A stretch of DNA of 26,570 bases from a virus. The stretch is from positions 1-26,570 of the IMG/VR virus record IMGVR_UViG_3300009378_000050; one strand, given 5' to 3'. Both the position numbers and the translations under genes were made by a program. The notes beneath the pieces were generated by a model. It saw only the letters and a program-made list of their open reading frames with translations. It did not search any database and was not told the origin of the DNA. Below, piece by piece: positions 1-25,454 of the stretch; position 1 is the first letter of the stretch, and every line of letters starts with the position of its first letter.

Positions 1-186
1 ACGATGACTGCCTGTTATTGACAGTTTACCGCGTACCATAGGCGATACGATTATGAGGCTACTAATACCTCGAAGTGATACACTCCACAAAGCCTACTTT
101 TACAAATAAACTTTAAGAAGTTACTTTAGCGTATAGTTAGCGCCACCATTCTTTTCTAAAGTCTACCTAGAAGAAGTTCACAATAA
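1..186. other. Left-edge intergenic sequence
   Basis: No supported gene is seen. A frame open to the left edge on the minus strand (from an ATG at about 39) has no ribosome binding site. A copy of the TTCTAGGTAG motif at 162-181 lies just after the last early gene and points left, so it could drive genes outside the window. A short GAGG/CCTC hairpin occurs near 54-70. Confidence 0.4.
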
Positions 187-2109: not shown

Positions 2110-2751
2110 TAGATTCTCCATTGATTAAATATAAATGATTTACAGCCAGTGAGCCTGTACTATGTAGGACTATGTACGTAAGTTAAGGTATTATTAAGGA
2201 GTTAGTACGGGTTATTAGACATCTTGCTACATAGTGTTTTGCACATTATTAGTGATATGCTATGAACTGCCTAATAAACTCTACTAACTTATTAAATGCA
2301 CACTATGTCAGTGTATGTCTAAATAGTACTATATACTAACATAGTGTTAAGTGCTGATATGACACTCATCATAACCTAAATGTAATGATTTGTGTCTAAC
2401 TCGGTGAGTATTATGTCTTGTGAGTTGGTTGCTATGTCTATTAGTTGTAGGTCATGTGTCTAATTGTACCTTATTATTGTCTTAGTAGCTTGTCACCCTC
2501 GACACGCCCTTGACTCTCCCAAGTCTTACCAATAATTAACTAGACCTAACTAATCCCGTAACCCAGCAAAACAACTTACTATATTACGGTATGCCTCAAC
2601 AACCTCTACCCATATCTCCCACATTTACCCAGCTCAACCCTGTATTCTACCAAGGGTTCAGGTAAACAGGTCTACCCAGCCTGACCTAGCACCTATACAG
2701 TACTAGACCTATTCTACATAATATCCCCATTTGTTGAAATATAGGCTAGAC

Positions 2752-2866
2752 ATAACTACCCTACCTAGAATACTACCATACCTAGAATATGTGTATAAGA
2801 CTTGTCAAGCTCCACATTCGGATGCTCCCAAGTCTCAGCGAATACCCTACCTAGAAGAGATTCACT
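2752..2866 (-). promoter_or_regulatory. Cluster of TTCTAGGTAGGGTA-type motifs (candidate phage promoters)
   Basis: Three copies lie on the minus strand: TTCTAGGTAGGGTA ending near 2757 and again near 2843, and ATTCTAGGTATGGTA near 2776-2790. A related copy, TTCTTCTAGGTAGACT, lies at about 162-181, in which 17 of 20 bases match the 2846-2865 copy. They sit in gene-free DNA upstream of early genes, in the right orientation. A short repeated motif with a purine-rich GG start is what one expects for a single-subunit RNA polymerase promoter, but this is inference. Confidence 0.35.
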
Positions 2867-2897
2867 AATTGTCTTGACCTGCGAGTTTACGAGCCAT

Positions 2898-2936
2898 GTC
2901 TTTATTCCATGAGAGTCTCTTGCTCTTCATAAAGAC
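2898..2936. ncRNA. Potential structured RNA: bulged hairpin downstream of the RNA polymerase gene
   Basis: GTCTTT (2898-2903) pairs with AAAGAC (2931-2936). After a 5-base bulge ATTCC on the left, ATGAGAG (2909-2915) pairs with CTCTTCAT (2923-2930) with one bulged A, closing a 7-base loop. An outer GCGAGTT (2881-2887) can pair with GACTCGT (2948-2954), with two G-U pairs. No T-run follows on either strand, so it is not a simple terminator, and it lacks the arms of a tRNA. It may be a small RNA, a processing site or chance structure. Confidence 0.35.
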
Positions 2937-3056
2937 GGAACGCAGTAGACTCGTGGTAACTAATGGTCTGTATTTGCTAACGGACTAGTGTATAGCTAGT
3001 TATTAACAAGTTCTATAATAGGCTCTATCAAGAACCTACTAACAACTTACTATTAA

Positions 3057-5018
3057 CTACTTAGCGAAGTAGTATGATGTACCAAGTGCTTCAATTAACT
3101 CTGTAACTGGCACATTCATTATCTTAGTCATCTTACGTATGTTTCTACCATGTAAGTCTAAGAACTGTTTCATAGGTATTACTTTAGCATTTGGGTTAGT
3201 TACCTCAGACTGCATACCCTCAAAGAACATACCAAGTATATCAGTACCAAGAGGCATATCCTCTGTCTTGATGTTAGTACGTGACCCAAACAAGTCCATG
3301 TATGCATTCTTGATAGCTTGCTCTAGTAAGTGCATTTCAGTTACATTAACTCGGAAACAGTCATGTACTGCTATGATATGCTGAGCACCTAATCGTTTTA
3401 AGTGTACAATTATCAATCTAGCTATTAATGCATCTGTAGCTTGTATCATATTCACAAATGAGTTACGTATGAAGTTCTTAGTATTAACCTCTAGCGTGTT
3501 TAGTGCTAGCTTGATGAACTTGTAAGTATACTCACTAGTAGTAACAATTACATCAGGACACACTACATCATGCTCTATAGCTTGGTCTAGTATGTTATGT
3601 TGTACTTTATAGTTCATTTGCACACGAGAACCATCAGGCATCATATGACCTGTACGAGTCTCTATGTTGGCATCATTGTACTCTGCTATGCGTTGACGTA
3701 ATGCACACATCTTCTTACCAAATGACTTAGTTACAGCCTTATGAAATCTCTTAGCTACATCATCAGATACTATACCTTCTGGATAGAGTACAGCTACAAC
3801 CTCAAACTGTTCATCTTTTATTAACTGCTTAACATCAGTAAATGCAGCCCAGCCTTGTCCATAGAACACTCCCATGAATGACTTCTTAATACCTCCACGA
3901 GTGAAGCCTACAAAGCCAGCTTTCTCTAACTCTGTAATACAACGTTGATATGCATCTTCTAGCTTAGTTAGTGTCATACCACAAGCAGCAGCTATATCTT
4001 CATCACCTACCATCAGAGCACCTAACTGAGGCCCTGAACACTTAGCATCCAACCCAACAGCCATACCTATGTACGGACGATTACCTTTCTGTAATTCACT
4101 CCATATCATAGCTGCCTTAGTGAATGACCAAGGCTTGCTAGCTAGTCTATCTTTCTTATCTTTACCTAACTCTTCTATTATGAAGTCTACAGGATTAGCT
4201 ATTGCTTTAGACATTAGTTTGCCTACCTTGTTCTCTGGTATGCTTACCATGTCCATGACTTCTGCTTTTATAACTCTCTTAACTGTAGGAATGTCATACT
4301 CAGTAGTAACACCTGCTAAGTCCATAAGTGCACGACTTCTATCACTAGCTTGACCATTTGGCCCATGACAAGCAGCTTGATATGTACGAATACGTCTATC
4401 TGCTTTGAACTCACTAGTATATGCATTCTCTGCACTCATAGCATTACAACCAGCTAGTACATACGCTTCATCATCTGCCTCAGCGCCTCCCATAATAGTT
4501 TGTACTCTATTAGCTATGTCTACCATAACCTGACTTATTGTGAACTGACTAGCCTCTTGAGCATGTATAGCTTCTATAGCTAACTTACCCATTTGTCCTT
4601 TCTCTATACCATAGTTAGGGAAGCGTCTAGTGAATTCATCACCAACCTTAGTAGGTGCATAAGCCTCAGTACGTTGCTCCATAATCTGTATCATGCGGTC
4701 GCCTATAGTGCCATCTTCCTTAGCAAGCTGTGCTTCCATTAGGGCAAGATGTACATGCTCTTCTGGTATAGTTGTTTTATGCTCTACTACATCTATTGAG
4801 CCATTACCAGATACAGACGTTTGTAACTTAGCACTAGCTAGTGAGTGCTTTACTAAGTCTACGAAAGCCTCTGGCATGTCTAAGTCACCGACTAGCTTAG
4901 TAGCATCCACTACAGCACAGGCCAGTAGTACTGATACTCTAGCATTACCTATTTGATGGAATAGGTGAGCAGCAACAGTTGATGATAGGGCATTAGTGTT
5001 CATTTGTGTAGTATCCAT
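3057..5018 (-). CDS. Single-subunit (T7-like) DNA-dependent RNA polymerase, compact form
   Basis: The chosen ATG at 5018 has AGGAG six bases upstream and gives 653 residues. In-frame ATGs at 5078 (AGAGGAA site) and 5135 (weak site) would add up to 39 Asn/Thr-rich residues. Numbering from 5018, the polymerase landmarks are present: DRRIRTYQAACHGPNGQ (from 207), matching the T7 DWRGRVY...NPQGN block; motif A GLDAKCSGPQLGALM (D324); motif B FTRGGIKKSFMGVFYGQGW (R374, K378/K379, Y386, G387); and motif C HDCFRV (H552, D553). The C-terminus ends SYYFAK, near the conserved FAFA-type end of T7. T7 RNA polymerase has 883 residues. Here the part before the DRR block is about 200 residues shorter, so the promoter-recognition and melting region is reduced. 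The enzyme would transcribe phage genes from its own promoters. Confidence 0.9.
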   Translation of the reverse strand: MDTTQMNTNALSSTVAAHLFHQIGNARVSVLLACAVVDATKLVGDLDMPEAFVDLVKHSLASAKLQTSVSGNGSIDVVEHKTTIPEEHVHLALMEAQLAKEDGTIGDRMIQIMEQRTEAYAPTKVGDEFTRRFPNYGIEKGQMGKLAIEAIHAQEASQFTISQVMVDIANRVQTIMGGAEADDEAYVLAGCNAMSAENAYTSEFKADRRIRTYQAACHGPNGQASDRSRALMDLAGVTTEYDIPTVKRVIKAEVMDMVSIPENKVGKLMSKAIANPVDFIIEELGKDKKDRLASKPWSFTKAAMIWSELQKGNRPYIGMAVGLDAKCSGPQLGALMVGDEDIAAACGMTLTKLEDAYQRCITELEKAGFVGFTRGGIKKSFMGVFYGQGWAAFTDVKQLIKDEQFEVVAVLYPEGIVSDDVAKRFHKAVTKSFGKKMCALRQRIAEYNDANIETRTGHMMPDGSRVQMNYKVQHNILDQAIEHDVVCPDVIVTTSEYTYKFIKLALNTLEVNTKNFIRNSFVNMIQATDALIARLIIVHLKRLGAQHIIAVHDCFRVNVTEMHLLEQAIKNAYMDLFGSRTNIKTEDMPLGTDILGMFFEGMQSEVTNPNAKVIPMKQFLDLHGRNIRKMTKIMNVPVTELIEALGTSYYFAK

Positions 5019-5115: not shown

Positions 5116-5274
5116 TTATTCATTGTCAAGTTCATTACAAACTTCTTTCAAGTGTTGAACGTATTGCTTATCTTGTGCACTATTGCCATTCTTCTTAAAG
5201 TTATTGAACAAGCAAGAGTTAATGAATGCTGCTTCTCTTTGTGAACACTTTACGCCATTTATTAGTTGTATCAT
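5116..5274 (-). CDS. Hypothetical 52-residue protein upstream of the RNA polymerase
   Basis: The ATG at 5274 follows AAGGAGAATAAC. The frame is also open further upstream, to an ATG at 5424 (102 residues) with a GGGAG site. That longer version would overlap the 26-residue gene in another frame and starts with an odd hydrophobic-then-basic stretch, so the shorter start is preferred. The short product is Asn/Lys/Cys-containing and probably helical (CSQREAAFINSCLFNNF, then QDKQYVQHLKEVCNEL). No family was recognised. It sits directly before the polymerase gene and could regulate it or the host enzyme; this is inference. Confidence 0.5.
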   Translation of the reverse strand: MIQLINGVKCSQREAAFINSCLFNNFKKNGNSAQDKQYVQHLKEVCNELDNE

Positions 5275-5288
5275 GTTATTCTCCTTAG

Positions 5289-5369
5289 TTATGCAAACGC
5301 TATTATAAGCACTGTTAAAAGTATTGAACCATAAGCAGTTCCACGAACGATGTTGTTTAAGTCTATCAT
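5289..5369 (-). CDS. 26-residue single-helix membrane microprotein
   Basis: A 27-codon frame (with stop) begins at the ATG at 5369 behind AGGAGAATACT, the same leader used by the RNA polymerase and several early genes. The product starts MIDLNNIVRGTAYG and then has an unbroken hydrophobic run of about 12 residues (SILLTVLIIAFA) to its end, enough for a short membrane segment. Its TAA is followed at once by the AAGGAG site of the next gene, so the two look coupled. Phage microproteins of this type often alter host membrane functions, but nothing in the sequence identifies a target. It is supported by the ribosome binding site and composition only. Confidence 0.5.
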   Translation of the reverse strand: MIDLNNIVRGTAYGSILLTVLIIAFA

Positions 5370-5424
5370 AGTATTCTCCTGTTGTAGTAAATAGAAAAAG
5401 AAGCAAAGAGACTCCTTTATACAT

Positions 5425-5963
5425 CTGACTCCCTAAGCTCCGCAAGCAGATTCAGCACATATATATTTTATTTTCTAGATTCTAACTACAACTACCTATA
5501 GACTAAGTAGCCCGTAATCCCAACAACCAACTAATTATACTTACCTAGCTTATAATTATTTACTAACTAACATACATATAATTTCTAGCTAGCCTCTTCA
5601 TATATAATATTATGTTAGGGATATATTTATATGTAAGTAGGCACTAACTTGAGTGCATGATAGAGCTAGTGAGGCTAGGTATACCCGTAATATTGCATCA
5701 AATAATCAGTTAAATGAGCCAAAATTAGTGCCTAAATCGCTAAATATAGCGGCTTAAAATTCAATCCTGAGCCAATATATTATTTAAAATTTGGGCTTAA
5801 AATAGGCCGTTTTAGGGCTTTATTTGTAATTATATAGTGCTGGATAGTGGCAGTTATAACAGTCAAACAAGCCCCCAAAAGAGCCAAAAACAAAAGGAAT
5901 TAGCTATTTAAAGCACTTTCTCTATTAAATTAAGCCAATGTACAGCAAAATTAAAAGTGCTTT
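5425..5963. other. AT-rich intergenic region with hairpins, no supported gene
   Basis: No reading frame with a ribosome binding site is seen. The region holds a second inverted repeat (AAAGCACTTT at about 5920-5929 and AAAGTGCTTT at 5954-5963), a short hairpin CGCTA/TAGCG near 5738-5751, and several GGCTTAAAA/GAGCCAAAA-like words in both orientations. One candidate sigma70-like -10 box (TATAAT, minus strand, 5834-5829) lacks a convincing -35. A TATAGGTAG word on the minus strand near 5489-5507 resembles the motif near 2760-2865. Transcription of the polymerase block probably starts here; the exact promoter cannot be named. Confidence 0.5.
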
Positions 5964-6013: not shown

Positions 6014-7555
6014 TTAGTCAATCTTTTCTTCTACATACTTATTTAGATTGTCAATTTCTTCATAAGTAGTTTTGATAATCATATCTTGTTCAAGTACGGT
6101 AGTTTCTAACTCTTCTACACGTTCTCTTAGATTACCTAAATTATTTACAGTCTCTTCTAAAGATTCTATACGTCCCATAGCTTCCACTAAAGCACCTAAA
6201 GCTTTCATATAAAGTACAGAAGTTTTGACAGTTAAAGTTCCTTCGTTATCTTCCTGAACTAAACCGCCCATACCAGCTTCTTGTAAGTCTTGAGCCATTA
6301 CACCCAAATGTCTTACAGCATCTTCTCCATCTTTATCTACTTGCTTAGTGATTCTATAGTTATGCAACTGAACTTTCTTTATATCTTGCCATTGACTTTT
6401 AGCAGTAGATATATCTTGTTTTATTCTTCTATCTGAAATAGTGCCATAAGAGTTGTTAGCATTCTGTACATCACCATTTGAATGTACTCTGAAAGAAACG
6501 TCAGTTCCACCATCATCAATACCTACAAAATTGTAACGATTATTTCTAACTTGTACACTAATACCATCAGCTAAACTGGTATTATTTATAATTCTTGTAG
6601 CATAACTACCACTTGAAGACGAAGTAAATACATATAAAGGCTTATAACTAGTGACATCAACTTGGTCTACTTTTAACGCCCCATTACCATTAACTGATAT
6701 ACCTATACTATCTTGGGAAGGTGCATAAAATCCTGAGTTAGCGTCACTATAAAATGTGATGGCTGGAGCAGCTTCACTACCAGTAAGAAAATTTAAGGTA
6801 TTGTTTGCAGTTATCTCTGAGTCACTTATAGTTAGTCGGTTATTCCCTCCTGTTGATATACCAAGTACATCTGGTGAAACTTGATAAAAGCCAGTATTTA
6901 CATCACCGAAAGTAATAGTAGGAAAAGCTGCATTACCTGCTGCCATATTTAACTTATCACAACTTATGACATAGGCATCAATAGTTCCACTACTTGTCAT
7001 ATTCTTTGTAGTAATATTTTCTACTGCTGCTAAAGTATCTGCCTCTATATTGCCTGTAGCTGTTACTGTAATACACCCTACATCACCATTAACACTAATG
7101 CCAGTAGATAAAGTCTCTAGTTTTGAAGCACTGTTATGTAATAATCTAATACCTTGAGTAGAGTTTATATCTATACTACCCACAGTACTGTCTATCTTCA
7201 TAGCACTTCCAGTATGAAACACACTAGAATCATTACCAGTCCCAAAGAAAGCCTTTATGTTATCGTTATATCTAGTGCCAGCAGTACGAATGTCTAACTC
7301 ATTATTCCTTGTAGCATTTAGCTTATACTCAGAATTAGCTAAAGCATAAGGAGTGATAAACTTAGTAGCACTTACTCCTTCATTTACTTCTATTTCACTA
7401 GCTGAACCATACGTATACGGAGCAACTACTTGCCAAAACCCATCTGCACCTGAACCGCCGCTAGTGTCTTTCCAAGTATATCTAACTCCTTGGAAGTCAT
7501 AAGTTTGACCATTTAAAGGTGAGCTTGGAAAATCTATTGGACTATCTACACTCAT
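6014..7555 (-). CDS. Tail fibre / spike with C-terminal peptidase S74 intramolecular chaperone
   Basis: A 513-residue protein with an AGGAG ribosome binding site. The N-terminus (SPIDFPSSPLNGQTYDFQGV, then RYTWKD) is a short phage fibre unit. The middle is beta-rich and has two copies of a common fibre motif: 'PTITFGDVNTGFYQVSPDVLGIS' around 212-234 and 'PAITFYSDANSGFYAPSQDSIGIS' around 264-287. Residues 371-465 are a peptidase S74 domain: GTISDRRIKQDI with candidate catalytic S374 and K379, then 'HLGVMAQDLQEAG' and 'VKTSVLYMKALGALVEAM'. It ends in a coiled coil (460-510). S74 domains trimerise the fibre and cut themselves off by a Ser-Lys mechanism, so the mature fibre probably ends near residue 373. 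It is the last gene of the late operon and is followed by a terminator. Confidence 0.85.
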   Translation of the reverse strand: MSVDSPIDFPSSPLNGQTYDFQGVRYTWKDTSGGSGADGFWQVVAPYTYGSASEIEVNEGVSATKFITPYALANSEYKLNATRNNELDIRTAGTRYNDNIKAFFGTGNDSSVFHTGSAMKIDSTVGSIDINSTQGIRLLHNSASKLETLSTGISVNGDVGCITVTATGNIEADTLAAVENITTKNMTSSGTIDAYVISCDKLNMAAGNAAFPTITFGDVNTGFYQVSPDVLGISTGGNNRLTISDSEITANNTLNFLTGSEAAPAITFYSDANSGFYAPSQDSIGISVNGNGALKVDQVDVTSYKPLYVFTSSSSGSYATRIINNTSLADGISVQVRNNRYNFVGIDDGGTDVSFRVHSNGDVQNANNSYGTISDRRIKQDISTAKSQWQDIKKVQLHNYRITKQVDKDGEDAVRHLGVMAQDLQEAGMGGLVQEDNEGTLTVKTSVLYMKALGALVEAMGRIESLEETVNNLGNLRERVEELETTVLEQDMIIKTTYEEIDNLNKYVEEKID

Positions 7556-7570
7556 TATTATCTCCTGTTA

Positions 7571-9658
7571 TTAAGAAGTTCCTTTAGCCCAAACTAAAGT
7601 ACCACCCATGTTTAATTCTACTTGTTGAAGTGTACCATTTGAATCTGCATACATAACATCAACTACATTTTGACCATTATATTGTAAATTATTAGTATCA
7701 TCTGTAGGGTTAACTACCCAAGAGGATGCAGTGCCCCAACTAGTTACAGAGTTCATATTATCAAAATCTGTAGCTATTCTTTCATTACTAAGAGGCTGTT
7801 TTGATAATCTTACATCAGATACAGAACCATCCCACAACTCTTGACCGTTTAACTGCCTCCCTCTACCTATAAATAGAAAGCCACTTGCAAAGTTATTTAA
7901 TGTGCCCGAAGTAGGACTTTGAGCTTTTAAATCTCCTTGATAGTATATGTATCTATTTCCAGAGTTATAAGTCATGACAGTATTCTTGTACTCACCTAAT
8001 TCTTGTACTTGACCTGACCTCAACCAAGAATCTTCGGTATCGTAAATACCCCAATCATCAGGGTCATTATCGGCCATAAGCCTAGCACTGTCACTTAGCG
8101 ATTGGTCATAGAGAGTTACTAACCCTTGTCCTAGTGAGTCAGTAGAAGTAGTATCTATCTTCCCCCAAGCTTGTACAGTGAAGTCACTAGTCATAGCTAA
8201 AGGTTGGCCTTGTTTGTCTACTAAACTGTAAGTAGTTACAAAGTTCTCTAAGTGACCTCCACAATCAAAACCACCAGCTATTGTTTGGCCTTCTACTTTT
8301 CTTTCAATAGGATGTACAACAGCTTTATCTACATTACCTGTTTCATCATCTTCACTGTAACAATCATGTGAAACTATCCAGTAGTCAGACCATACCTCAT
8401 TCCTTCCATATTGTTCATCGTTAGCAGGTTGACTACCTCCTTCATCTACAATATACACAGTAGAACCTGTAGAAGCAGAAGGCATTTTAATATACATCAA
8501 TACTTCTGGACTAGCTCCTGTATCACATTTAACTATTTGCAAAGGCAATCTAGTTGTTTTAGTGATATTTGTATATACTCTAATACCTTGGCCATTCCCA
8601 ATAGAGTTAGTAGAACCGTCTATTGCTTCTGGTGGGAAATCTGATTCTTTCATTTGTAATACAAAATCAGTTAACGTACCATTTATACTTGGCAAGGTAT
8701 AAGTAAATGATTTATTTTCTGGCTCAGGATAAGGTGGTGGTTCAATATTCTGACCAAAGTAAGGTAAGACCTCAACTACGCCCTGCATAGGTGAATTGTC
8801 TGCAAACCCTGCATAGTTAGTTACATTTCTAACATCCCAATATGTAAGATTTTGATATATAATGGCAGAGTTATAGAACATCCTAAACATATTTGTAGCA
8901 TTGCTTACATCCCACATACCTATATCTTGATTGAACTTATCACAATCAAAAAACATTGAATAGAAAATCTCTACATTACTTACATCCCATGCACTAAGAT
9001 CTTGGTTAAACTCTCTACAGCCTGTAAACATTTGCTGCATATTTGTTACATTACTAACATCCCAACTGGATAAATCCTGATTTAATGCCCTACAGTTTCC
9101 TAGTCCTTGGTACATGTCAGTTATGTTACTTACATCCCAATTCCCAATAGGCCGATTGAAAATGGAGCAATTATAAAGCATACTTCTTATACTAGTAAGA
9201 TTAGTATTAAAAACCCAGTTACTTATATCTGAATTAAATTTAAAACAGCTAAAGAACATACGTTCAAAATTCAATACATTACTAACATTCCAACTAGATA
9301 TATTTCCACTAAACCTAGAACAGCTTCTAAACATTCTATTCATGTCAGTTACATTGCTTACATCCCAGCTATTAAGGCTGCGAAAGTATTTAGAACATCC
9401 ATAAAACATTTCAGACATGTCAGTTACATTACTTACATCCCAGCTATCAAGATTTTGTTCAAATTTATTACATCCTTTAAACATACCCTTCATGTTAGTA
9501 GCAGAGCTTACATTCCAGCCACTAACATTTTGATTAAAATCAGAGTTGCTAGCAGCTTCACATAAATAGCTAAAATCTTCTATTTCCGACACATCTGCAT
9601 TAGTTACATCTTGGTTAGTATTTATTAGTGTTATCAGTTCTTCTCTAGTTAATGCCAT
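7571..9658 (-). CDS. Putative adhesin: BspA-like leucine-rich repeats, DUF2341-like and LamG-like domains
   Basis: A 695-residue protein with a GGAG ribosome binding site in the end of the previous gene. Residues 41-293 hold ten repeats of about 25 residues, consensus FNQDLSxWDVSNVTxMxxMF followed by xxCxx. This is the BspA-like surface repeat (DUF285 type) known from bacterial, protist and giant-virus surface proteins. A Pro-rich linker (EPPPYPEPEN) is followed by a DUF2341-like sandwich (about 317-460: GTLTDFVLQMKESDFPP, GIRVYTNITKTTRLPLQI, VLMYIKMPSASTGSTVYIV). A LamG/concanavalin-like domain follows (about 480-640: FTVQAWGKID, NTVMTYNSGNRYIYYQGDL, FLFIGRG, WDGSVSDVRLSKQPLSNERI). It is probably an exposed tail adhesin. 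Confidence is high for the repeats and LamG-like part and moderate for DUF2341. Confidence 0.75.
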   Translation of the reverse strand: MALTREELITLINTNQDVTNADVSEIEDFSYLCEAASNSDFNQNVSGWNVSSATNMKGMFKGCNKFEQNLDSWDVSNVTDMSEMFYGCSKYFRSLNSWDVSNVTDMNRMFRSCSRFSGNISSWNVSNVLNFERMFFSCFKFNSDISNWVFNTNLTSIRSMLYNCSIFNRPIGNWDVSNITDMYQGLGNCRALNQDLSSWDVSNVTNMQQMFTGCREFNQDLSAWDVSNVEIFYSMFFDCDKFNQDIGMWDVSNATNMFRMFYNSAIIYQNLTYWDVRNVTNYAGFADNSPMQGVVEVLPYFGQNIEPPPYPEPENKSFTYTLPSINGTLTDFVLQMKESDFPPEAIDGSTNSIGNGQGIRVYTNITKTTRLPLQIVKCDTGASPEVLMYIKMPSASTGSTVYIVDEGGSQPANDEQYGRNEVWSDYWIVSHDCYSEDDETGNVDKAVVHPIERKVEGQTIAGGFDCGGHLENFVTTYSLVDKQGQPLAMTSDFTVQAWGKIDTTSTDSLGQGLVTLYDQSLSDSARLMADNDPDDWGIYDTEDSWLRSGQVQELGEYKNTVMTYNSGNRYIYYQGDLKAQSPTSGTLNNFASGFLFIGRGRQLNGQELWDGSVSDVRLSKQPLSNERIATDFDNMNSVTSWGTASSWVVNPTDDTNNLQYNGQNVVDVMYADSNGTLQQVELNMGGTLVWAKGTS
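8780..9538 (-). repeat. Ten BspA-like (DUF285-type) leucine-rich repeats
   Basis: The stretch encodes ten units spaced about 25 residues apart, each centred on W-D-V-S-N-V/A-T. One unit (NWVFNTNLTS) is degenerate. At DNA level the plus-strand words 'ttacatccca' and 'ttacattact' recur in register, so the array is a natural target for recombination between units. Confidence 0.88.
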
Positions 9659-14222: not shown

Positions 14223-14825
14223 CTATATTCTTTCTATGGTAAATGAAATACCTGTAGGTACAAAATACTTAGCCATATAATTTATTAATTGAATTTCTCT
14301 ATCAGTTTCATTAGTACTTAAAGTTAGCTTTACAGGCTTGTTGCCTTCTATTTTAAATAAGCTAGGAACTCTTCCAAGTATTGTAGATATTACTTCATAA
14401 GCTAAATTAATATCACAACTGTCTTTATTTAAAACTAAAGCCTTGGCTAGTAAAACCCTTCTATAAGTTTCATCATCAAGAGGTATTTTCTCTATTTGTT
14501 CAAGGTTAGCATCTTTAAATACTCCACCAATAGCAGGTGTGTTAACATCACCAAACCCTTCTACGTTAGAAGCACCTTCAAAACCGAAGTATATGTCAGG
14601 CAATTCTATAGCTCTGCTTTGTTGGAGTATAATACCTATAATATCTAGCTGCTCACCTACTGCAATGTCAATAAACCTTCCATAATATACCTTGTCTATT
14701 TCTTCAAACAGTATGTCCATTTCTTTAATAAATGCACCCATGTACTCTTTTAAGTTAGTACTGTTTTGATACTGTTCTAGTAATAGGCTATTAAATATAT
14801 CTGTGCCTTTAGTTGTATTACTCAT
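14223..14825 (-). CDS. DUF2612-like / gpI-like baseplate protein
   Basis: A 200-residue protein; its ATG overlaps the TAA of the J-like gene and has a GGAG site within that gene's last codons. The sequence fits DUF2612: an N-terminal helix 'LLLEQYQNSTNLKEYMGAF', then 'YYGRFIDIAVGEQLDIIGIILQQSR', then 'LDDETYRRVLLAKALVLNKDS' and 'YMAKYFVPTGISFTIERI'. In the family the 'G-x-x-L-D-x-I-G-x-I-x-G-x-x-R' and 'D-x-x-Y-R-x-x-L-x-A-K' blocks are characteristic. It takes the place of P2 gpI, joining the wedge to the tail fibres. This agrees with the adhesin genes that follow. Confidence 0.8.
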   Translation of the reverse strand: MSNTTKGTDIFNSLLLEQYQNSTNLKEYMGAFIKEMDILFEEIDKVYYGRFIDIAVGEQLDIIGIILQQSRAIELPDIYFGFEGASNVEGFGDVNTPAIGGVFKDANLEQIEKIPLDDETYRRVLLAKALVLNKDSCDINLAYEVISTILGRVPSLFKIEGNKPVKLTLSTNETDREIQLINYMAKYFVPTGISFTIERI

Positions 14826-15973
14826 TATGACTCCGTAATGCTTATTAACCCTATTTCAGTTTGAGCATATTCTGTGGCAGATATAGTCACGTTAGCAGCA
14901 GCTTGGTCAGATAAGTCAGGCAATCTACCTATAGTTAAAGAGTTAACTTGAGCTTTTGCATAAGGTGTTATTACACTAAATAGTCTTGACCATACCACAT
15001 CTTCACCAGCTAGTAAGCCGTTTATATGAGCAGTCAAGTCTCTTCTTATACCTTCTAATGCACCAGCTACCTCAGTATCTAAGAATGTAATATCCATTAT
15101 AATAAAGATATCCACACCTACTGCCTTGCTAAAGCTTACTTCATGTTGATGGCCTAATCTGTCATTAGTAGTTACTGTAGTACTTCCAAAAGTAGGACAG
15201 CCTAAACCTTTAGTATCTAATATAACTTGAGCTATCTGGTCATCTGTAACATTACCTACTTCACCTACTGTAACATGAATAGTGTTAGGTGGTGTTCCAT
15301 CTGGCAATGCATCAGTAGGGTCATCATTGTTTTGTATATCAGCTTGTTCTATACCTAACTCAAACAACCTAGCTTGAATAGTTTCACTAACACTAGTAAA
15401 GTTTCTAAGCACTGTTCTATTACGTTCATTCTTATAAGCTACCTCTGTTTGAGCTAGTTTACCAGTTATACCTGTAGTTGGCTGATTAACTCCATCCCAA
15501 CCTGCAACTGGTGACTTAATAGTAGTTATAGTACCAATGTCCATTACTATAGGGCCAGACACTCTAGCTACTACAACTACGGTAGTAGGTATAATAGCAT
15601 CTATGATAGTAGTAAATTCATTACCTGCATCATCTGTTACTACGCTACCTTGAGGTACTACTGTATCTGCAACACCTGTCAATTCTATAGAAGCTTGACT
15701 ACGAGTAGCTGCCCCTCTTGGTAAGCCAGTAATTAAACCTATATTTCTAAGTCCTGCCCCAATAGCTTGATTAGGGTCATAAGACTTGTAGACTAGAGAT
15801 AGTTCGCTCCAAGCTAAGGATAACTCTAAAGACATAATATCTATCAGTTGTCCATCTGGTGAAGTAGGTGAGAAGTCAAAGCCTTCATTAAATACTTCTA
15901 GTCTAGCTCTTATGCTAGTTTGTATTTCTTCAAATGTTTTGGGTACAAACCCGTCTCTGGTTAATCCAGCCAT
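14825..15973 (-). CDS. Baseplate J-like wedge protein
   Basis: A 382-residue protein following the gp25-like gene with adjacent stop and start, and a GGGAG ribosome binding site in the end of that gene. The N-terminus (GFVPKTFEEIQTSIRARLEV, then FSPTSPDGQLIDIMS) and the segment 'NIGLITGLPRGAATRSQASIEL' followed by 'VVPQGSVVTDDAGNEFTT' are hallmarks of the Baseplate_J family. So is the middle 'PVAGWDGVNQPTTGITGKL'. The family also includes P2 gpJ and T4 gp6, which make the wedge that triggers sheath contraction. The C-terminal domain (DLTAHINGLLAGEDVVWSRL, then SVITPYAKAQVNSL) is also typical. Gene order gp25, J, gpI-like is the standard module. Confidence 0.85.
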   Translation of the reverse strand: MAGLTRDGFVPKTFEEIQTSIRARLEVFNEGFDFSPTSPDGQLIDIMSLELSLAWSELSLVYKSYDPNQAIGAGLRNIGLITGLPRGAATRSQASIELTGVADTVVPQGSVVTDDAGNEFTTIIDAIIPTTVVVVARVSGPIVMDIGTITTIKSPVAGWDGVNQPTTGITGKLAQTEVAYKNERNRTVLRNFTSVSETIQARLFELGIEQADIQNNDDPTDALPDGTPPNTIHVTVGEVGNVTDDQIAQVILDTKGLGCPTFGSTTVTTNDRLGHQHEVSFSKAVGVDIFIIMDITFLDTEVAGALEGIRRDLTAHINGLLAGEDVVWSRLFSVITPYAKAQVNSLTIGRLPDLSDQAAANVTISATEYAQTEIGLISITES

Positions 15974-19253: not shown

Positions 19254-22200
19254 TTATCCTCCTGTGCCTATACCTGTTTCTTCATCTATATTTAAGTCGC
19301 CATCTACATCTACTGCTGTTCTTACTAGTTCAGGATTAACCTCAACATTAACATCAACATTAGTAGTTTTACTTTCAGCAGTTTCTATACCAACAGCTTT
19401 CATATGACCTATATCAGTAGCGGGAACAGCATCTTTTGCTACGTCCTCTTCCCATATAGTTCCAGCTCTCCAATCTCCACTGAACATAGAATCTCTTGCA
19501 TCTTTCTTTGCTTGGTTAACTTCATTACGTTCAGTACCAAACATTGATGCACTAAATTCATCTACTGCATCCATAGCAAAGTCTCCGACAGTGTAAGCAA
19601 CAGCTAGTGGCCCAGCTACCTTACCACCTACGTTCTTGAGATTGCTCATAGCTTTACTAGCAAAGTTACTAGGCTTAGCTCCTTTCAGAGCTTCTGCTGT
19701 ACCTACTTTAGTCTTAGCAGAACTCATTATAGATTGAGCTTTCTTGCCAGCTAAGTAGCTTACTCCAGCACCGACAGCAGGTGCAGCTATTGATACAGCA
19801 GCAGTACCAGTACCGAAGTTTTCTTCACCTACTAAACTACTTGCACCCTCTACTACATCAGCTTTCAAGTCACGGAAGTCATGTACTAAATCTTTTATAG
19901 CAGAGTCAACTTTCCTCATTGAAGCTTCATCAACATCACCACGAGCAGTCGCTAGTGTTTCAGCAGTTGCATCTGAAACAGTAAGCTCAGGAACGTTTAA
20001 TATTCCAGCTACCTGCGCTCTGTCTCTAGGATTAAGACCTCTCATTATTTCTTGAGATTGAGCTATGTAACTTTGAGCGTCCATAGACTCTCGATTAGCA
20101 TACAAGCCAGTTACGTCTAAGCCTTTTACATTGTCTGAACTAGATGCAGCAATAGCTGTTTGTATTCTAGCTGTTTCTTTAGCTGCTGTTATTTCATTCT
20201 TGTAAATACTTACTTGACTGCCAGCCGACAATATAGTTGATGTAGCTCCTGACTTATCTAAGCCAGACTCCATTAAGGCGTCACTTAAACCCCTTGCTTG
20301 GTTAGCTTCAATACCTGCTTTAGCTCCTAACTGTACTGCATCCATTTCTTCGTTTACAGTAGCCATAGTTATCTTAGCTATCTTTTGTAAAGTACTTGTA
20401 GCTTTCTTTACATTTTCTGAGAAGTTCTGTAATGACTCAGAAGCTTCATTAAGTTCATCGTCATTGCCACCATTACTAGGCGGTGGCGGCTTCTTCCAAC
20501 CCTCTCTAGGAACATGGTTTAGAATCCTACCAGCACTACCTCTTTTACCTCCGCCACCTGAGAAGTAATCAGCTTTCGGGCTACCTGCCGCTGCTTCAAC
20601 TGCCTTCTTAGTTTCTTCTTTGTTCGAAGTCTTCTGGTCATTGTTGATTTCTCCATCAGGTTGGGCAGTACTTACTTCTTCTTCTTTATCTTTAGCATAG
20701 GTAGACTTAGTAGGTTTCTTACTATATTTTCTACCATCAGGACTAAATGCTTTCATAGGTTCTTGTACATCAACTTCTTCCTTGAAAGCTTCTTCCTGAC
20801 CTTTGCCTTGATTCTTCTTACGTGGCTTTCTTGCGCCCTTAACATCTTCTGCCAAAGCGTATACCCCTCTGTTGTCAAGACTAGCAGCAATCTCTTGAGC
20901 CTCTTCACCAGCAGCTAAAATCTCAGCTTGCATATCAGAGTCTTCTTCTACTAGTTCGTAGAAAGATTCACCAGTGTATTTATTAAGAGCATAGAAGTGA
21001 GTTTGTTTCTCTCCTGTCTCCATCATTTGCATTTGCATTTGCACCATAGTATCAGCAAGTGCAGTTTTCATGCCTTTAGTATTAAAGTTCTTAATCTCTA
21101 ACAATCCAGCACTTTTGCCAGTAGTTTTATCAAACAACCTACCATCTGGTGAAGCACCAAAACCTTTATGTTTAGATTCAAAGAAGGCTTCTTCAAAACT
21201 TAAATTTTTACCTTCTCCAGCTAAGAAGCTTTCAACAGCTTTATCTTCTGACTCATTACCCTCACGAGTAAAAGCATTACCTTTAAAAGCATCGGCAGTG
21301 CCTAGCCTTTCTTTAGCTAGCTCAACTGCCATGCGCTCTGAGCCTCTGCCCATTGTTAAAGTCTTAGCTATAGAGCCAGTAATATTACCTTTACGTTGAG
21401 CAAGCCATTCAGGTGAACCCTGTTTAGGCATTGGGTTTTGTAATACTCGTAACTGGTAAGCTTCTTGGTCAGTTAACTCACGAGACTCCGATAGCTTTAA
21501 TAATGAATCTAACTTGCTAGCTTTCTGACTTTCTTCTGTCTCACTTTCAAGATAACCTTCAACAAATATTTGAGATTCTGATAACTCTTTCTCTCCATAT
21601 AACCCACCTTGTTGAGAACCTTTACCATGTCTTTCTATTTGTTCATTAGACATAGGTATAGCTTCTGGTCTATCTAAACTTAGGTCAAGCAAGAAAGCCT
21701 CATTACGAGCATTATCTAAGTTACGTTGTTCTTCTTGGTTAGCATCAAAGCCACGTGACCGTCCTCTACCTTCTGTTTCATCCCTTAATGTTGGCATCTG
21801 CTCCCTAAGAACTCTGGCAGCAAACTCAGCTTTCTCTTGATACAAATCCATCTTGCGTGTTTGTTCAGCCTTAGCATTAGCAAACCATTTAGCATTTTCA
21901 GGTGTACCATATCCATAAGGAGATTTACCAATAGGAAATAAAGAATTACGTAAGCTTGGCTTTTCATCCCAATACTCTTTAGACCTTTCATCTACAGGTA
22001 GCTTTTCATTAGCTAAAGCTACTTCACTAAAGCCAAACTGTAGCCTATCTAAAGCTGTGTTTCCCTTACCAGCCATTGTAGGTTTTATACCAGTTATGCC
22101 AGTTTCATTAGGCAAAGGTAATAATGCTTTACTATGTGCGCTCATGGTACTATCCATGAACCTTTTAGTAATAGCTTCTTCTAACCCTAACTGTCTTACA

Positions 22201-22862
22201 CCCTGTATAGTAGACCCTATAGTTTCTTCGTGTACATAGACAGAGGCTATATCTTTTACATGAGTCATAGCTAGCTTTAACTCTTCATCAGCCTTCATTT
22301 GCTTTTCTTGGCTTAACGTGTGACCAGCTAATTGACTACCTGCACCTTTGTCTAAATACTCCCCAGCGGTCTTACCTAACATACTTAAAGCTATAGATAC
22401 GTCAGTCTTTGAATTAGGAAATGGTATACCTCTTGGGAAGTCTTCACCTTTCATTTCTCTGGCAAAGTCTTTACCTTTCATACCAGTGACATCTTCAAAC
22501 TCTTCTACTACTGCCGCTATCTGTAAAGGGTCTACTCCAGAAGGAACAAACTCTCCACTTAGCAATCCACGTATACCAGCTTGTACATTAGGAGATACAC
22601 GAGACATACGACTTAGCTGCAAATCTCTTGCAGTCATCATGCCTTCTTGTTCTTGATTGACTCTACCTACTACTTCTTCTCTCAAGTCTCGGTAGGCATT
22701 CTCCATATTAGTTAATGTGCCATACTCTTCTAGTAATGAGTCTTCTGGTGAAAGTCCTTCATGTTCTTCTGAACCAATGATGGTTAAGCCAGATAATTCT
22801 TCATTTTCACTATCTCCATAGATGTCACCATCTAGGTCATCACCTAAGTAGTTACTAGACAT
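19254..22862 (-). CDS. Tape-measure-position protein with internal YqaJ-type nuclease domain
   Basis: A 1202-residue, mostly helical protein in the tape-measure slot, between the frameshifting chaperone pair and the baseplate hub. The ATG at 22862 has an AGGAG site five bases upstream. The C-terminal part, from residue 800, looks like a tape measure: long helices (LNEASESLQNFSENVKKAT) and Ala/Gly-rich hydrophobic segments near 1020-1040 and 1080-1100 that could enter a membrane. Residues 480-645 match the YqaJ/lambda exonuclease fold: GSPEWLAQRKGNITGS (482-497), REGNESEDKAV (533-543), GASPDGRL with D573, LLEIKNF with E589 and K591, and a glutamine-rich helix with Q608, Q610 and Q612 followed by TG. 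These are the expected PD-(D/E)xK catalytic positions, so the domain looks intact. Charged Lys/Glu linkers flank it (about 430-475 and 655-800, with KKPPPPSNGG). The tape-measure role is inferred from position. A DNase role during ejection or against competing DNA is inference. Confidence 0.75.
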   Translation of the reverse strand: MSSNYLGDDLDGDIYGDSENEELSGLTIIGSEEHEGLSPEDSLLEEYGTLTNMENAYRDLREEVVGRVNQEQEGMMTARDLQLSRMSRVSPNVQAGIRGLLSGEFVPSGVDPLQIAAVVEEFEDVTGMKGKDFAREMKGEDFPRGIPFPNSKTDVSIALSMLGKTAGEYLDKGAGSQLAGHTLSQEKQMKADEELKLAMTHVKDIASVYVHEETIGSTIQGVRQLGLEEAITKRFMDSTMSAHSKALLPLPNETGITGIKPTMAGKGNTALDRLQFGFSEVALANEKLPVDERSKEYWDEKPSLRNSLFPIGKSPYGYGTPENAKWFANAKAEQTRKMDLYQEKAEFAARVLREQMPTLRDETEGRGRSRGFDANQEEQRNLDNARNEAFLLDLSLDRPEAIPMSNEQIERHGKGSQQGGLYGEKELSESQIFVEGYLESETEESQKASKLDSLLKLSESRELTDQEAYQLRVLQNPMPKQGSPEWLAQRKGNITGSIAKTLTMGRGSERMAVELAKERLGTADAFKGNAFTREGNESEDKAVESFLAGEGKNLSFEEAFFESKHKGFGASPDGRLFDKTTGKSAGLLEIKNFNTKGMKTALADTMVQMQMQMMETGEKQTHFYALNKYTGESFYELVEEDSDMQAEILAAGEEAQEIAASLDNRGVYALAEDVKGARKPRKKNQGKGQEEAFKEEVDVQEPMKAFSPDGRKYSKKPTKSTYAKDKEEEVSTAQPDGEINNDQKTSNKEETKKAVEAAAGSPKADYFSGGGGKRGSAGRILNHVPREGWKKPPPPSNGGNDDELNEASESLQNFSENVKKATSTLQKIAKITMATVNEEMDAVQLGAKAGIEANQARGLSDALMESGLDKSGATSTILSAGSQVSIYKNEITAAKETARIQTAIAASSSDNVKGLDVTGLYANRESMDAQSYIAQSQEIMRGLNPRDRAQVAGILNVPELTVSDATAETLATARGDVDEASMRKVDSAIKDLVHDFRDLKADVVEGASSLVGEENFGTGTAAVSIAAPAVGAGVSYLAGKKAQSIMSSAKTKVGTAEALKGAKPSNFASKAMSNLKNVGGKVAGPLAVAYTVGDFAMDAVDEFSASMFGTERNEVNQAKKDARDSMFSGDWRAGTIWEEDVAKDAVPATDIGHMKAVGIETAESKTTNVDVNVEVNPELVRTAVDVDGDLNIDEETGIGTGG

Positions 22863-23080: not shown

Positions 23081-23442
23081 TGTTCCTTTGCTAAGCCTAA
23101 GTCGAAAAAAGATGAATATTGAGAATGTATTACATGAGTGAATAACTCTGCAACTACACCTAAGTTTTCTTCAAACATTTCATCAATTGTCTCTTGAGTA
23201 ATCTTTTGATTATCTATACGAACTTGACAGATAAAGTGCTTAACTAGATTAGCTGCTTGTTTAGGGTCAGATGAACCCATAATAGCCACTACAGTAGAAG
23301 CTATATTTAATTCCGCTATGTTAATAATATTTTCTGTGCCTAGATACTTACCTGCTAAAGTTAAGTTTTCTAAGGCTACGCCTACACTCCATGAAGGTAT
23401 ATAAATTTCTCTACCATCTTTTATTGTAGCTGTATATGACAT
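23065..23442 (-). CDS. Tail assembly chaperone (short, unshifted form)
   Basis: A 125-residue protein between the tube and tape-measure genes, with an AGGAG ribosome binding site 5-6 bases before its ATG. This is the position of gpG in lambda and of its counterparts in P2, Mu and other tailed phages. The protein is mostly helical in its C-terminal half (KQAANLVKHFICQV, QETIDEMFEENLGVVAELFTHVI). The N-terminal 'Y-x-A-x-I-K-D-G-R-E-I-Y-I-P-x-W' strand block fits small chaperones that coat the tape-measure protein before tube assembly. It ends at a TAG shortly after a run of five C bases, where a -1 shift would give a longer form. No specific family was recognised with certainty; the role follows from position and the frameshift layout. 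Confidence 0.7.
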   Translation of the reverse strand: MSYTATIKDGREIYIPSWSVGVALENLTLAGKYLGTENIINIAELNIASTVVAIMGSSDPKQAANLVKHFICQVRIDNQKITQETIDEMFEENLGVVAELFTHVIHSQYSSFFDLGLAKEHSPDK

Positions 23443-23454
23443 TTTATTCTCCTA

Positions 23455-23487
23455 AAATAAAAAAGCCCCATCCTAGAAGGATAGAGC
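23455..23487 (-). terminator. Intrinsic terminator after the tail tube gene
   Basis: On the minus strand a 9-bp stem (arms GCTCTATCC and GGATGGGGC, with two G-U pairs) closes a 5-base loop TTCTA. It is followed directly by TTTTTTATTTT. It lies between the tube stop codon and the ribosome binding site of the chaperone gene. The downstream genes are clearly late genes without another obvious promoter here, so this is probably a leaky terminator that lowers expression after the very abundant sheath and tube. Confidence 0.8.
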
Positions 23488-23503
23488 AATTTGTTTGGTT
23501 TGT

Positions 23504-23998
23504 TTAGATTGATTCACCAATCTCTAGGTTGTCATTACCGAATGCACGATTCATAGCAACCTTTTCAAAAGTAAGTACCCAAGTTACGGTATTCATGGTT
23601 TGACCACGAGACATAGCTGGCATAGCTAAGATTACGCCATTAGTTAGTGTAGCTTCATCTTTACCCATGTTATCTTTCAACTTGGCTTGGATAGGCTTAA
23701 CTAAGGCACCATCTGCTTCTGCTAAAGACTGGAAGTAGTTTGCATAATCTTGCAAATATTTGTTCTCTTCCGAATTCATGAGTACTGGAAATGTTAAATC
23801 CCCAGCTACTATACGTTGCATACTTACAACCATATCACCATAAGCACCGAACTGAGTCGTTGCAATGGGTGCTCTACGCATAATGTTAATTAAGTTTTCA
23901 CCAGTAGAGAAACCACGTACTGATAATTTCTTAACAGAGCCAGAGGCAGAAGGAATCTCTAAGATTAAATCTACATTAGCAAAACTATATTGATACAT
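23504..23998 (-). CDS. Tail tube protein (DUF3277-like)
   Basis: A 164-residue protein with an AAGGAAT ribosome binding site. Its pattern fits DUF3277-type tail tube subunits: an N-terminal strand (YQYSFANVDLILEIP), an 'FSTGENLINIMRRAP' strand-turn, then 'FGAYGDMVVSMQRIVAGDLTFPVLMNSEENKYLQ'. The family typically shows 'G-x-x-G-x-x-x-x-S/R-x-x-x-x-x-G-x-I-T-x-x-L-x-x-S-x-x-N-x-x-L' in this place. The end is the usual tube C-terminus with 'W-x-L-x-F-E-K'. The protein would form stacked hexameric rings inside the sheath, through which DNA leaves the capsid. It sits directly after the sheath gene, the canonical order. A terminator hairpin follows its stop codon. Confidence 0.78.
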   Translation of the reverse strand: MYQYSFANVDLILEIPSASGSVKKLSVRGFSTGENLINIMRRAPIATTQFGAYGDMVVSMQRIVAGDLTFPVLMNSEENKYLQDYANYFQSLAEADGALVKPIQAKLKDNMGKDEATLTNGVILAMPAMSRGQTMNTVTWVLTFEKVAMNRAFGNDNLEIGESI

Positions 23999-24008
23999 TT
24001 ATTATTCC

Positions 24009-25454
24009 TTATTCTGAGAATGAGCCGCTTACAATTACTTCATGTAAAGCACCAGCGCCTACCATGTCAAAAGTCATACCTGAATAGATACGATTACCTT
24101 TGTCGCCAGCAGGTACTTGGTCAATTGTAGGAGCATTAATACGGAAACCACGAGGTAAGAAAGTGCCATCAGGTAAGAAACCTGCACTTGCTAGACCGTT
24201 AGTAACTGCTGCTTGTAAAGCTCTGTCTAATGCAGCTTCTACAATATTGATACCTGTTTGGTTGAAAGGAATCTTATCAGGTGACAAATACAATGTATTA
24301 AATAAGTCAGTTTCACAACGATTCTCTAACCATAATACACCGTGAGTAGTGTCTAACCATGTGCCAGAAGACATACGAGAATCTGTAAAAGCATTTACAC
24401 TCTTACCAATCTTCACTACAGCATTAGCAAACTTACTACGTAAGTGGCCTAACTCACTAGGGGTTAAATCTTCTGCGGTAACACCAGCTAACTGTTTAAG
24501 GTTAAGAGTCATTGTAGTGTTGAAACCATTAAAGTTAACACTTGCGACACGTCCAAATGCAGCAGCACTAGGGTACTCATTCGGTGAGTTAGAGAAAGTA
24601 GTCATTACAAAGTTTGAAGTAATTGCTTTCAATTTAGCTGCTACGTTATTTTCACTGCTAGTCAGTGTAGTAATATCATTAGTAGTATTACAAAAGATTT
24701 TCTTAAAGCCTGTAGCTGCCTGTGCAATTTCTACAACAGTAGAACCTGCTTTATCATCACGCATAGACTTGTCAGTTACAAGACCTACAAAGTCAATACC
24801 TTTATCGACTGCTGCTGCTAATGATTCTGTTGGAGTTTCTATATCCACACCTACAGAAGACCTTGCCTTACTTTGGTCTAGACCTAAGACTTCGGCTACA
24901 TCACCTGTTGCAAATGATACACTACTAGTTGCACCAGTGGTAACACTCTTGATTACAAACACACCGTTTTCATAAGTACAAGTACTGCCAGTACTGGCGC
25001 TATCTACTAGAGCATTTATAGTACTAGCTACATCGTCTAGAGTAGAAGCAGAAGATAAGTCAACTTCTACTGCACTTACTGTGCCACCATCTAGAGTTAC
25101 ATTAAACTCCATGTTAGGTGCAACGATTATTTCTTCTAAAGGTAAATGTAATCCACCTTTTAAGACAGCTTGTTGTGCAGTATCATAAGACATGATAGCT
25201 ACAAAATCTGTAGGTGTAGGTGTTTGACCATAGAAAGCTTGAGCAGCTTTAAAGACTTCTGAATTTGCATTCCAGTCTTCTGATACAGTCTTTAAGCTAG
25301 TATAAGCTCTAGCTCGTTCTGTCGGTGATATAGGATTAATAGCATCATCAGAGCTAAGTCCTAAGAAACCTAAGATGCCAAAATTACCACCAGAGACACC
25401 CACTGGCGATACTGAGATAGATACATCAGCAAATTCAGTTATTTCAATTGCCAT
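24009..25454 (-). CDS. Contractile tail sheath protein (DUF3383-like)
   Basis: A 481-residue protein whose ATG follows a GAGGAAT ribosome binding site. The N-terminus (ITEFADVSISVSPVGVSGGN, then FGILGFLG) and the 'RARAYTSLKTVSEDW...VFKAAQAFYGQTPTP' block match the DUF3383 family, which contains sheath subunits of contractile-tail phages. The C-terminal third has a sheath-like Pro/Asn-rich segment (FLPDGTFLPRGFRINAPTID) and ends with strands that would join neighbouring subunits. The sheath polymerises around the tail tube and contracts to drive it through the host envelope. It is followed at once by the tube gene, and both precede an intrinsic terminator. That layout fits the high copy number of these two proteins. 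Confidence 0.82.
   Translation of the reverse strand: MAIEITEFADVSISVSPVGVSGGNFGILGFLGLSSDDAINPISPTERARAYTSLKTVSEDWNANSEVFKAAQAFYGQTPTPTDFVAIMSYDTAQQAVLKGGLHLPLEEIIVAPNMEFNVTLDGGTVSAVEVDLSSASTLDDVASTINALVDSASTGSTCTYENGVFVIKSVTTGATSSVSFATGDVAEVLGLDQSKARSSVGVDIETPTESLAAAVDKGIDFVGLVTDKSMRDDKAGSTVVEIAQAATGFKKIFCNTTNDITTLTSSENNVAAKLKAITSNFVMTTFSNSPNEYPSAAAFGRVASVNFNGFNTTMTLNLKQLAGVTAEDLTPSELGHLRSKFANAVVKIGKSVNAFTDSRMSSGTWLDTTHGVLWLENRCETDLFNTLYLSPDKIPFNQTGINIVEAALDRALQAAVTNGLASAGFLPDGTFLPRGFRINAPTIDQVPAGDKGNRIYSGMTFDMVGAGALHEVIVSGSFSE

Follow-up and report, generated by a model that had tools for sequence, protein, structure and literature searches.

Here we report an intact, compact single-subunit RNA polymerase (RNAP) gene of the chasevirus type, found on a 26,570-nucleotide virus fragment (IMG/VR record IMGVR_UViG_3300009378_000050; this whole stretch is hereafter called the window). 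As judged from its genes, the window phage represents an uncultured chasevirus-like lineage that is sister to the known Chaseviridae. We consider it fairly probable that this RNAP is active and starts transcription at TTAATGAATMTCTTCTAGGTAGRGTA motifs located behind its own gene, from which the DNA would be read in one direction. What is new here is the promoter-candidate motif; the RNAP type itself is already known from Chaseviridae.

The RNAP gene

The 653-aa open reading frame matches Pfam RNA_pol (E=5e-5) and PHROG 414 'RNA polymerase' (E=3e-27), and an AGGAG ribosome-binding site precedes its ATG; an in-frame ATG at 5135 is an alternative start that would give 692 aa. Motif positions and spacings were obtained from an alignment of 45 single-subunit polymerases:

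3057..5018, minus strand: single-subunit RNA polymerase, 653 aa (ORF list, Pfam, PHROG, alignment, AlphaFold2)
4386..4400, minus strand: DxxGR block, here DRRIR, residues 207-211 (alignment)
4026..4049, minus strand: motif A DAKCSGPQ, residues 324-331 (alignment)
3858..3887, minus strand: motif B KKSFMGVFYG, residues 378-387 (alignment)
3360..3365, minus strand: motif C His552-Asp553 (alignment)
3099..3287, minus strand: C-terminal region with a lineage-specific insertion of ~30-35 residues (alignment)

All superfamily catalytic positions are kept in the window RNAP (D207, R211, D324, K378, Y386, H552, and D553), and the catalytic residues are complete in each of the 14 RNAPs of the window lineage. 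The glycine of the DxxGR block is replaced by Ile in the window RNAP and by I, L, S, A, or F in several lineage members. The dN/dS ratio of 0.15 between the window RNAP gene and that of its relative G001 (89% identical) indicates that the gene is under constraint. The enzyme is functional-looking, with RNA synthesis predicted from its residues and fold. A frameshift concealing an N-terminal part, which the sequence-only reading had raised as an objection to a compact enzyme, was looked for, and neither a frameshift in the RNAP gene nor a conserved upstream gene with the missing part was found; a hidden upstream part is ruled out by a stop just upstream that closes the frame. A small ORF at 5116-5445 (minus strand), with a relative only in G001, overlaps the possible upstream start.

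The region before the DxxGR block comprises 206 residues in the window RNAP and 194-280 in its lineage, compared with 212-236 in Cleopatravirinae (276-280 in two divergent IMG/VR members), 235 in N4 RNAPII, 274-410 in Nefertitivirinae, and 420 in T7. The spacing between motifs A and B is 54 residues in the window RNAP and 53-58 in its lineage, 57-63 in RNAPs of the N4 RNAPII type, 59 in Syn5, 60-67 in Nefertitivirinae, 65-74 in Cleopatravirinae, and 94 in T7. Both reductions relative to T7 that had been noted from the sequence were therefore confirmed by the alignment (206 vs 420 and 54 vs 94), but the short A-to-B spacing is not distinctive, since it is T7, not the window RNAP, that represents the long extreme. 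Downstream of motif C, the RNAPs of the window lineage have 97-118 residues, whereas T7 RNAP has 72 and those of the other chaseviruses have 64-71.

Contractile tail genes

The tail region of the window contains the following genes, together with genes for the tape measure, baseplate hub, and tail terminator:

24009..25454, minus strand: tail sheath protein (PHROG 205, E=8e-94; Pfam DUF3383)
23504..23998, minus strand: tail tube protein (PHROG 280; synteny with GJ1 gp59)
14825..15973, minus strand: baseplate wedge protein, J-like (Pfam, PHROG, synteny)

The top tblastn matches of the sheath protein belong to Chaseviridae (44% to VPs20), and the sheath and baseplate genes match those of GJ1 and VPs20 in order. 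With the polymerase motifs complete and sheath, tube, and baseplate genes present, the initial description of a compact single-subunit RNAP in a contractile-tail phage holds. Such an RNAP was reportedly already present in the contractile-tail phage phiEcoM-GJ1 (2008). The combination is not unusual, as had been thought, but is a trait of the family Chaseviridae (PMC12842549), and compact N-termini also occur in Cleopatravirinae and in N4 RNAPII.

Three window proteins of the tail region have additional features. The protein at the tape-measure position (19254-22862, minus strand) contains a YqaJ/RecE-type exonuclease domain at residues 485-617 with an intact SPDG...LLEIK motif; all lineage genomes that cover the locus encode such a domain in the corresponding protein, and it was not detected in GJ1 or VPs20. 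This nuclease might be ejected together with the DNA. One tail fibre (7571-9658, minus strand) combines repeated SWDVSNVT-type units (DUF285, BspA-like leucine-rich repeats) with Laminin_G_3, and its repeat part was found by tblastn only in the window and in its closest relative, G001. Another fibre (6014-7555, minus strand) ends in a C-terminal Peptidase_S74 intramolecular chaperone, and its first ~80 residues alone are widely conserved in the lineage.

Relatives and phylogeny

A tblastn search with the window RNAP against 50,697 phage records (INPHARED) identified 101 relatives at E<=1e-5, which are ~23-27% identical to it and nearly all belong to Chaseviridae, and IMG/VR contains further uncultured phages whose RNAPs are 34-89% identical. 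In the maximum-likelihood (ML) tree, the 14 RNAPs of the window lineage form one clade (support 100/100) that lies inside neither Chaseviridae subfamily and is sister to Cleopatravirinae plus Nefertitivirinae, with which it is joined at 100/100; a long-branch warning makes the outer joins of this tree less sure. The window lineage and the chaseviruses stand apart from the T7-like and N4-II enzymes, so that the grouping with full-length T7-like polymerases, against which the compact enzyme was to be checked, is not seen. Nor does the window RNAP group with N4 gp15/gp16, as it is a single chain in a separate clade (100/100).

The sister position is further supported by the identities of the large terminase subunit (TerL), DNA polymerase, and major capsid protein (MCP), which agree with the RNAP tree: GJ1 and VPs20 share 50-61%, while the window lineage shares 40-51% with either of them (ranges exclude the G009 TerL, for which the extracted ORF is short). 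The window covers the tail genes, the RNAP gene, and the first 3 kb of the early region. Five near-complete relatives (G004, G009, G010, G011, and G013) are syntenic in the core genes for DNA polymerase, primase-helicase, TerL, portal, and MCP, and, in near-complete relatives, the genes for replication, packaging, and the head match their GJ1 and VPs20 counterparts with their order kept. The longest lineage relatives reach 52.5-59.0 kb, and the G+C content is 37-47% in the lineage and 36.8% in the window fragment; the published profile of Chaseviridae comprises genomes of 52-56 kb with a G+C content of 39.3-52.5% and terminal repeats of ~3 kb (PMC12842549).

Predicted structure of the RNAP

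An AlphaFold2 model of the RNAP, built with 33 lineage and chasevirus sequences, reached a pLDDT of 87.6 and a pTM of 0.85. Its top Foldseek match in BFVD is the phiEcoM-GJ1 RNAP (TM 0.73), and the matches among solved structures include T7 RNAP (Z 24-29 over ~450 residues; ~20-29 when mitochondrial RNAPs are included), so that the model shows the right-hand polymerase fold known from T7 RNAP. The N4 RNAPII chains were absent from the match lists of the structure searches, which is uninformative either way. The following elements were delimited in the models:

4689..5018, minus strand: reduced N-terminal domain, residues 1-110, with three helices, a beta-hairpin, and a helix (structural alignment to T7)
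4779..4829, minus strand: beta-hairpin, residues 64-80, candidate intercalating hairpin or wing (both models)
3486..3575, minus strand: predicted beta-hairpin at the specificity-loop position, residues 482-511 (DSSP of the AlphaFold2 model)

Because the alignments with T7 RNAP mostly begin at model residue ~110, corresponding to T7 residue ~264, the ~265-residue N-terminal domain of T7 appears to be reduced to ~110 residues, which agrees with the earlier suggestion of an N-terminal promoter module unlike that of T7. When the N-terminal part was folded alone (residues 1-205), no convincing fold match was found (best Z 6.1), and the matches to ribosomal S19-type proteins (Z 5-6) and MarR-like winged helices (Z 3-4) are in the noise range. 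From its position, the hairpin at residues 64-80 could have a role in opening the duplex.

The second hairpin ends 41 residues before the His of motif C, and its strands (489-511) lie 63-41 residues before it; the specificity loop of T7 RNAP (residues 739-770) lies 72-41 residues before the motif C His of T7. By analogy in position, the hairpin at residues 482-511 is predicted to contact promoter DNA. Within the lineage, the RNAP evolves fastest in its N-terminal region and in this hairpin, as expected for promoter-reading elements.

A repeated coding-strand motif behind the RNAP gene

The RNAP gene is followed by a long non-coding region, an equivalent of which is present after the RNAP genes of ST32, GJ1, PP101, PVN05, and pAh6-C. 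When the coding strand was screened for recurring 20-mers, a procedure that as a check recovered the annotated putative promoters of GJ1, the ~25-bp motif TTAATGAATMTCTTCTAGGTAGRGTA emerged in the window and in relatives, 200-300 bp past the end of the RNAP gene. The closest members served to define the motif, which was afterwards found at the same place in G008, G009, and G010. In the window, it comprises the following sites:

2129..3056, no strand: non-coding region of ~930 bp directly downstream of the RNAP gene (ORF list)
2842..2868, minus strand: promoter-like copy 1, TTAGTGAATCTCTTCTAGGTAGGGTAT, core 2843-2856, 200 bp after the RNAP stop
2773..2799, minus strand: promoter-like copy 2, core 2774-2787
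2756..2782, minus strand: promoter-like copy 3, core 2757-2770, overlapping copy 2
158..184, minus strand: promoter-like copy 4, core 159-172, in an intergenic stretch 2.9 kb past the RNAP gene

These four coding-strand cores and one match with two mismatches on the other strand make five matches in the window, compared with 1.0 expected on both strands of the shuffled window; five were reached in 0 of 100 shuffles. With <=2 mismatches allowed, the core TTCTAGGTAGRGTA has 22 forward and no reverse matches in the 14.9 kb behind the RNAP genes, whereas the other 490 kb contain 9 forward and 10 reverse matches. It is found behind the RNAP gene in 8 of the 14 genomes, and 7 of the 22 copies form a single tandem array in G003 (L064-L065, coding-orientation 23364-23625), with units of ~47-55 bp that each contain the core, so that the copies are not independent. 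A 33-column position weight matrix (PWM) trained on 20 sites found 31 forward and no reverse sites in 18 genomes, 11 of which had not been used for training. The first strong copy is located 200-294 bp past the RNAP stop in five genomes (the window, G001, G008, G009, and G010), and G005 and G012 have a weaker core variant at 242-254 bp. Isolated copies on the coding strand occur in the window (159-172), in G010 (26974), and in G004 (596 and 1058). In G011 and G014, which are the most distant members, no clear copy was found, nor did the PWM detect clear copies before the late genes of the full-length relatives.

The similarity of the motif to the consensus letters of T7, T3, SP6, and K11 is within chance. 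A scan of IMG/VR with the extended motif returned only two already known relatives plus apparent chance matches in contigs with no RNAP detected in the examined stretch, and is neutral. Around the RNAP gene, neither sigma-70 promoters of the host nor terminators exceeded the level of shuffles, and neither Rfam families nor tRNAs were found in the window.

The window motif corresponds in position to the putative promoters of GJ1, whose record annotates nine, one of them 298 bp behind the RNAP gene. In 11 Cleopatravirinae loci, the GJ1 motif occurs 49 times in forward and once in reverse orientation, with its first copy 20-342 bp past the RNAP stop in all 11 of them and, in several, another copy ~2.0-2.2 kb before the stop, just upstream of the gene. 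The GJ1-type motif is also spread over Cleopatravirinae genomes ahead of gene blocks, and VPs20 has a repeated coding-strand motif of its own. According to the ICTV, chasevirus promoters have not been identified (PMC12842549); putative ones were proposed earlier by the GJ1 record and by the PP101 authors. On the basis of the strand bias, the place behind the RNAP gene, and these counterparts in Cleopatravirinae and VPs20, we infer that the TTAATGAATMTCTTCTAGGTAGRGTA motif is the promoter of this polymerase.

The same repeats may instead be replication-origin iterons or operators for another protein, with the true promoters elsewhere, an alternative that we judge unlikely. In the window and in G003, these repeats are arranged in tandem or overlap (spacing 16-55 bp), and those that overlap or are 16-22 bp apart (window copies 2 and 3; the G003 array) would be odd as independent promoters; some copies (e.g., in G008) are partly palindromic as a protein-binding site may be, and the motif is confined to the post-RNAP region, with none found before late genes. 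Behind the RNAP genes of G012 (L081, about 2474-2670) and G005 (L083), moreover, lies a different, palindromic 19-bp repeat, CTGTCGAGANNCTTAACAG, with some copies 21-22 bp apart; it was considered as a promoter of this subclade and dropped, since palindromy and spacing better suit a binding site, so that these repeats are possibly origin iterons or operators. However, both genomes also hold the core variant, the lineage motif is always on the coding strand, isolated copies included, and its Cleopatravirinae counterpart is distributed in the manner of promoters, across the genome ahead of gene blocks and in some cases also preceding the RNAP gene. The two functions may also be compatible: in T7, the promoters phi1.1A and phi1.1B lie directly behind RNAP gene 1 and form the primary replication origin.

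Proposed mode of action

Under the promoter reading, the RNAP gene would first be transcribed, probably, by the host RNA polymerase. The phage RNAP would next initiate at the TTAATGAATMTCTTCTAGGTAGRGTA cluster, 200-300 bp past the end of its gene, with a putative RNA start at the GG of TCTAGGTAG, and would transcribe the early and middle genes in a single direction. To recognize the promoter, it would most likely use the predicted specificity-loop hairpin, which lies between motifs B and C, with a contribution from the reduced, lineage-specific N-terminal domain, whose hairpin could open the duplex. Speculatively, and by analogy with T7, the tandem sites may double as a replication start. A factor-independent, promoter-specific minimal RNAP, in which a ~110-residue helix-hairpin module (weakly winged-helix-like) replaces the N-terminal domain of T7 and which uses a new ~25-bp promoter behind its own gene, is a tentative proposal that we regard as possible but doubtful.

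A polymerase similar to N4 RNAPII, having no double-strand promoter recognition of its own and being loaded by a phage ssDNA-binding partner at melted AT-rich sites, appears improbable to us. N4 RNAPII has a truncated N-terminal domain, shows no sequence specificity alone, and requires the ssDNA-binding protein gp2 (PMC4496689). The window RNAP resembles it in its near-equal size (653 vs 673 aa), the equal reduction before DxxGR (206 vs 235), and the short A-to-B spacing, and its N-terminal domain is without a clear fold match. Yet it is one chain rather than two, has a B-to-C spacing of 174 vs 203-207 residues, and is set apart from the N4-II enzymes in the ML tree; a gp1 or gp2 homologue was not found by tblastn in G004 and G009-G013, a search that is weak for small proteins. 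Direct promoter recognition is favored by the long strand-specific motif, which differs from the AT-rich N4 RNAPII promoter at -7 to +2 (PMC4496689). The sequence-only reading had held that promoters are necessarily recognized in another way than by T7 RNAP, perhaps with the help of a partner protein; the N-terminal difference stands, but this conclusion exceeds the evidence, as the predicted specificity-loop hairpin and the strand-specific repeats fit direct reading. A partner protein may still take part.

A decaying or non-transcribing relic, at which the replaced Gly of DRRIR might hint, is extremely improbable given the dN/dS of 0.15, the catalytic residues kept in 14 lineage members, the high-confidence predicted fold, and the example of SP6 RNAP, an active enzyme that also has another residue (S) in place of this Gly.

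Together, the window-lineage motif and the GJ1 motif conserved in Cleopatravirinae provide a testable promoter set for Chaseviridae, which could show whether a single-subunit RNAP of ~650 aa reads double-stranded promoters alone. If the promoter reading is true, the enzyme and its promoter would form a pair orthogonal to T7. The uncultured sister group also widens the chasevirus-like diversity.

Comparison with known systems

The closest parallels are the RNAPs of phiEcoM-GJ1 and other Cleopatravirinae, which are likewise single chains from contractile-tail phages, in most cases of 630-661 aa with 212-236 residues before DxxGR, share a C-terminal YYF, and have, behind their genes, non-coding DNA in which a promoter-like motif occurs. 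They differ from the window RNAP in being only ~25% identical to it, in an A-to-B spacing of 65-74 vs 54 residues, in the absence of the C-terminal insertion, and in their own promoter-like motif, CATTAGTTGGATGTGAA, which is unlike that of the window lineage. The RNAPs of Nefertitivirinae (VPs20, Spp001, and pAh6-C) belong to one family with the window RNAP by tree and fold, and the tail genes of these phages are close to those of the window (sheath 44% to VPs20), but the RNAPs have a longer N-terminus (274-410 residues before DxxGR) and an A-to-B spacing of 60-67 residues. N4 RNAPII (gp15 and gp16; PDB 6dt7, 6dt8, and 6dta) is a similarly minimal enzyme with a truncated N-terminal domain, a short A-to-B spacing, and a total size of 673 aa vs 653 aa, whereas its two chains, separate clade, need for gp2, and ~30 residues longer B-to-C spacing distinguish it. 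Finally, the catalytic core of T7 RNAP superposes on the model from residue ~110 to 652, with the specificity-loop position occupied, and T7 RNAP differs by its ~265-residue N-terminal promoter domain and by an A-to-B segment that is ~40 residues longer.
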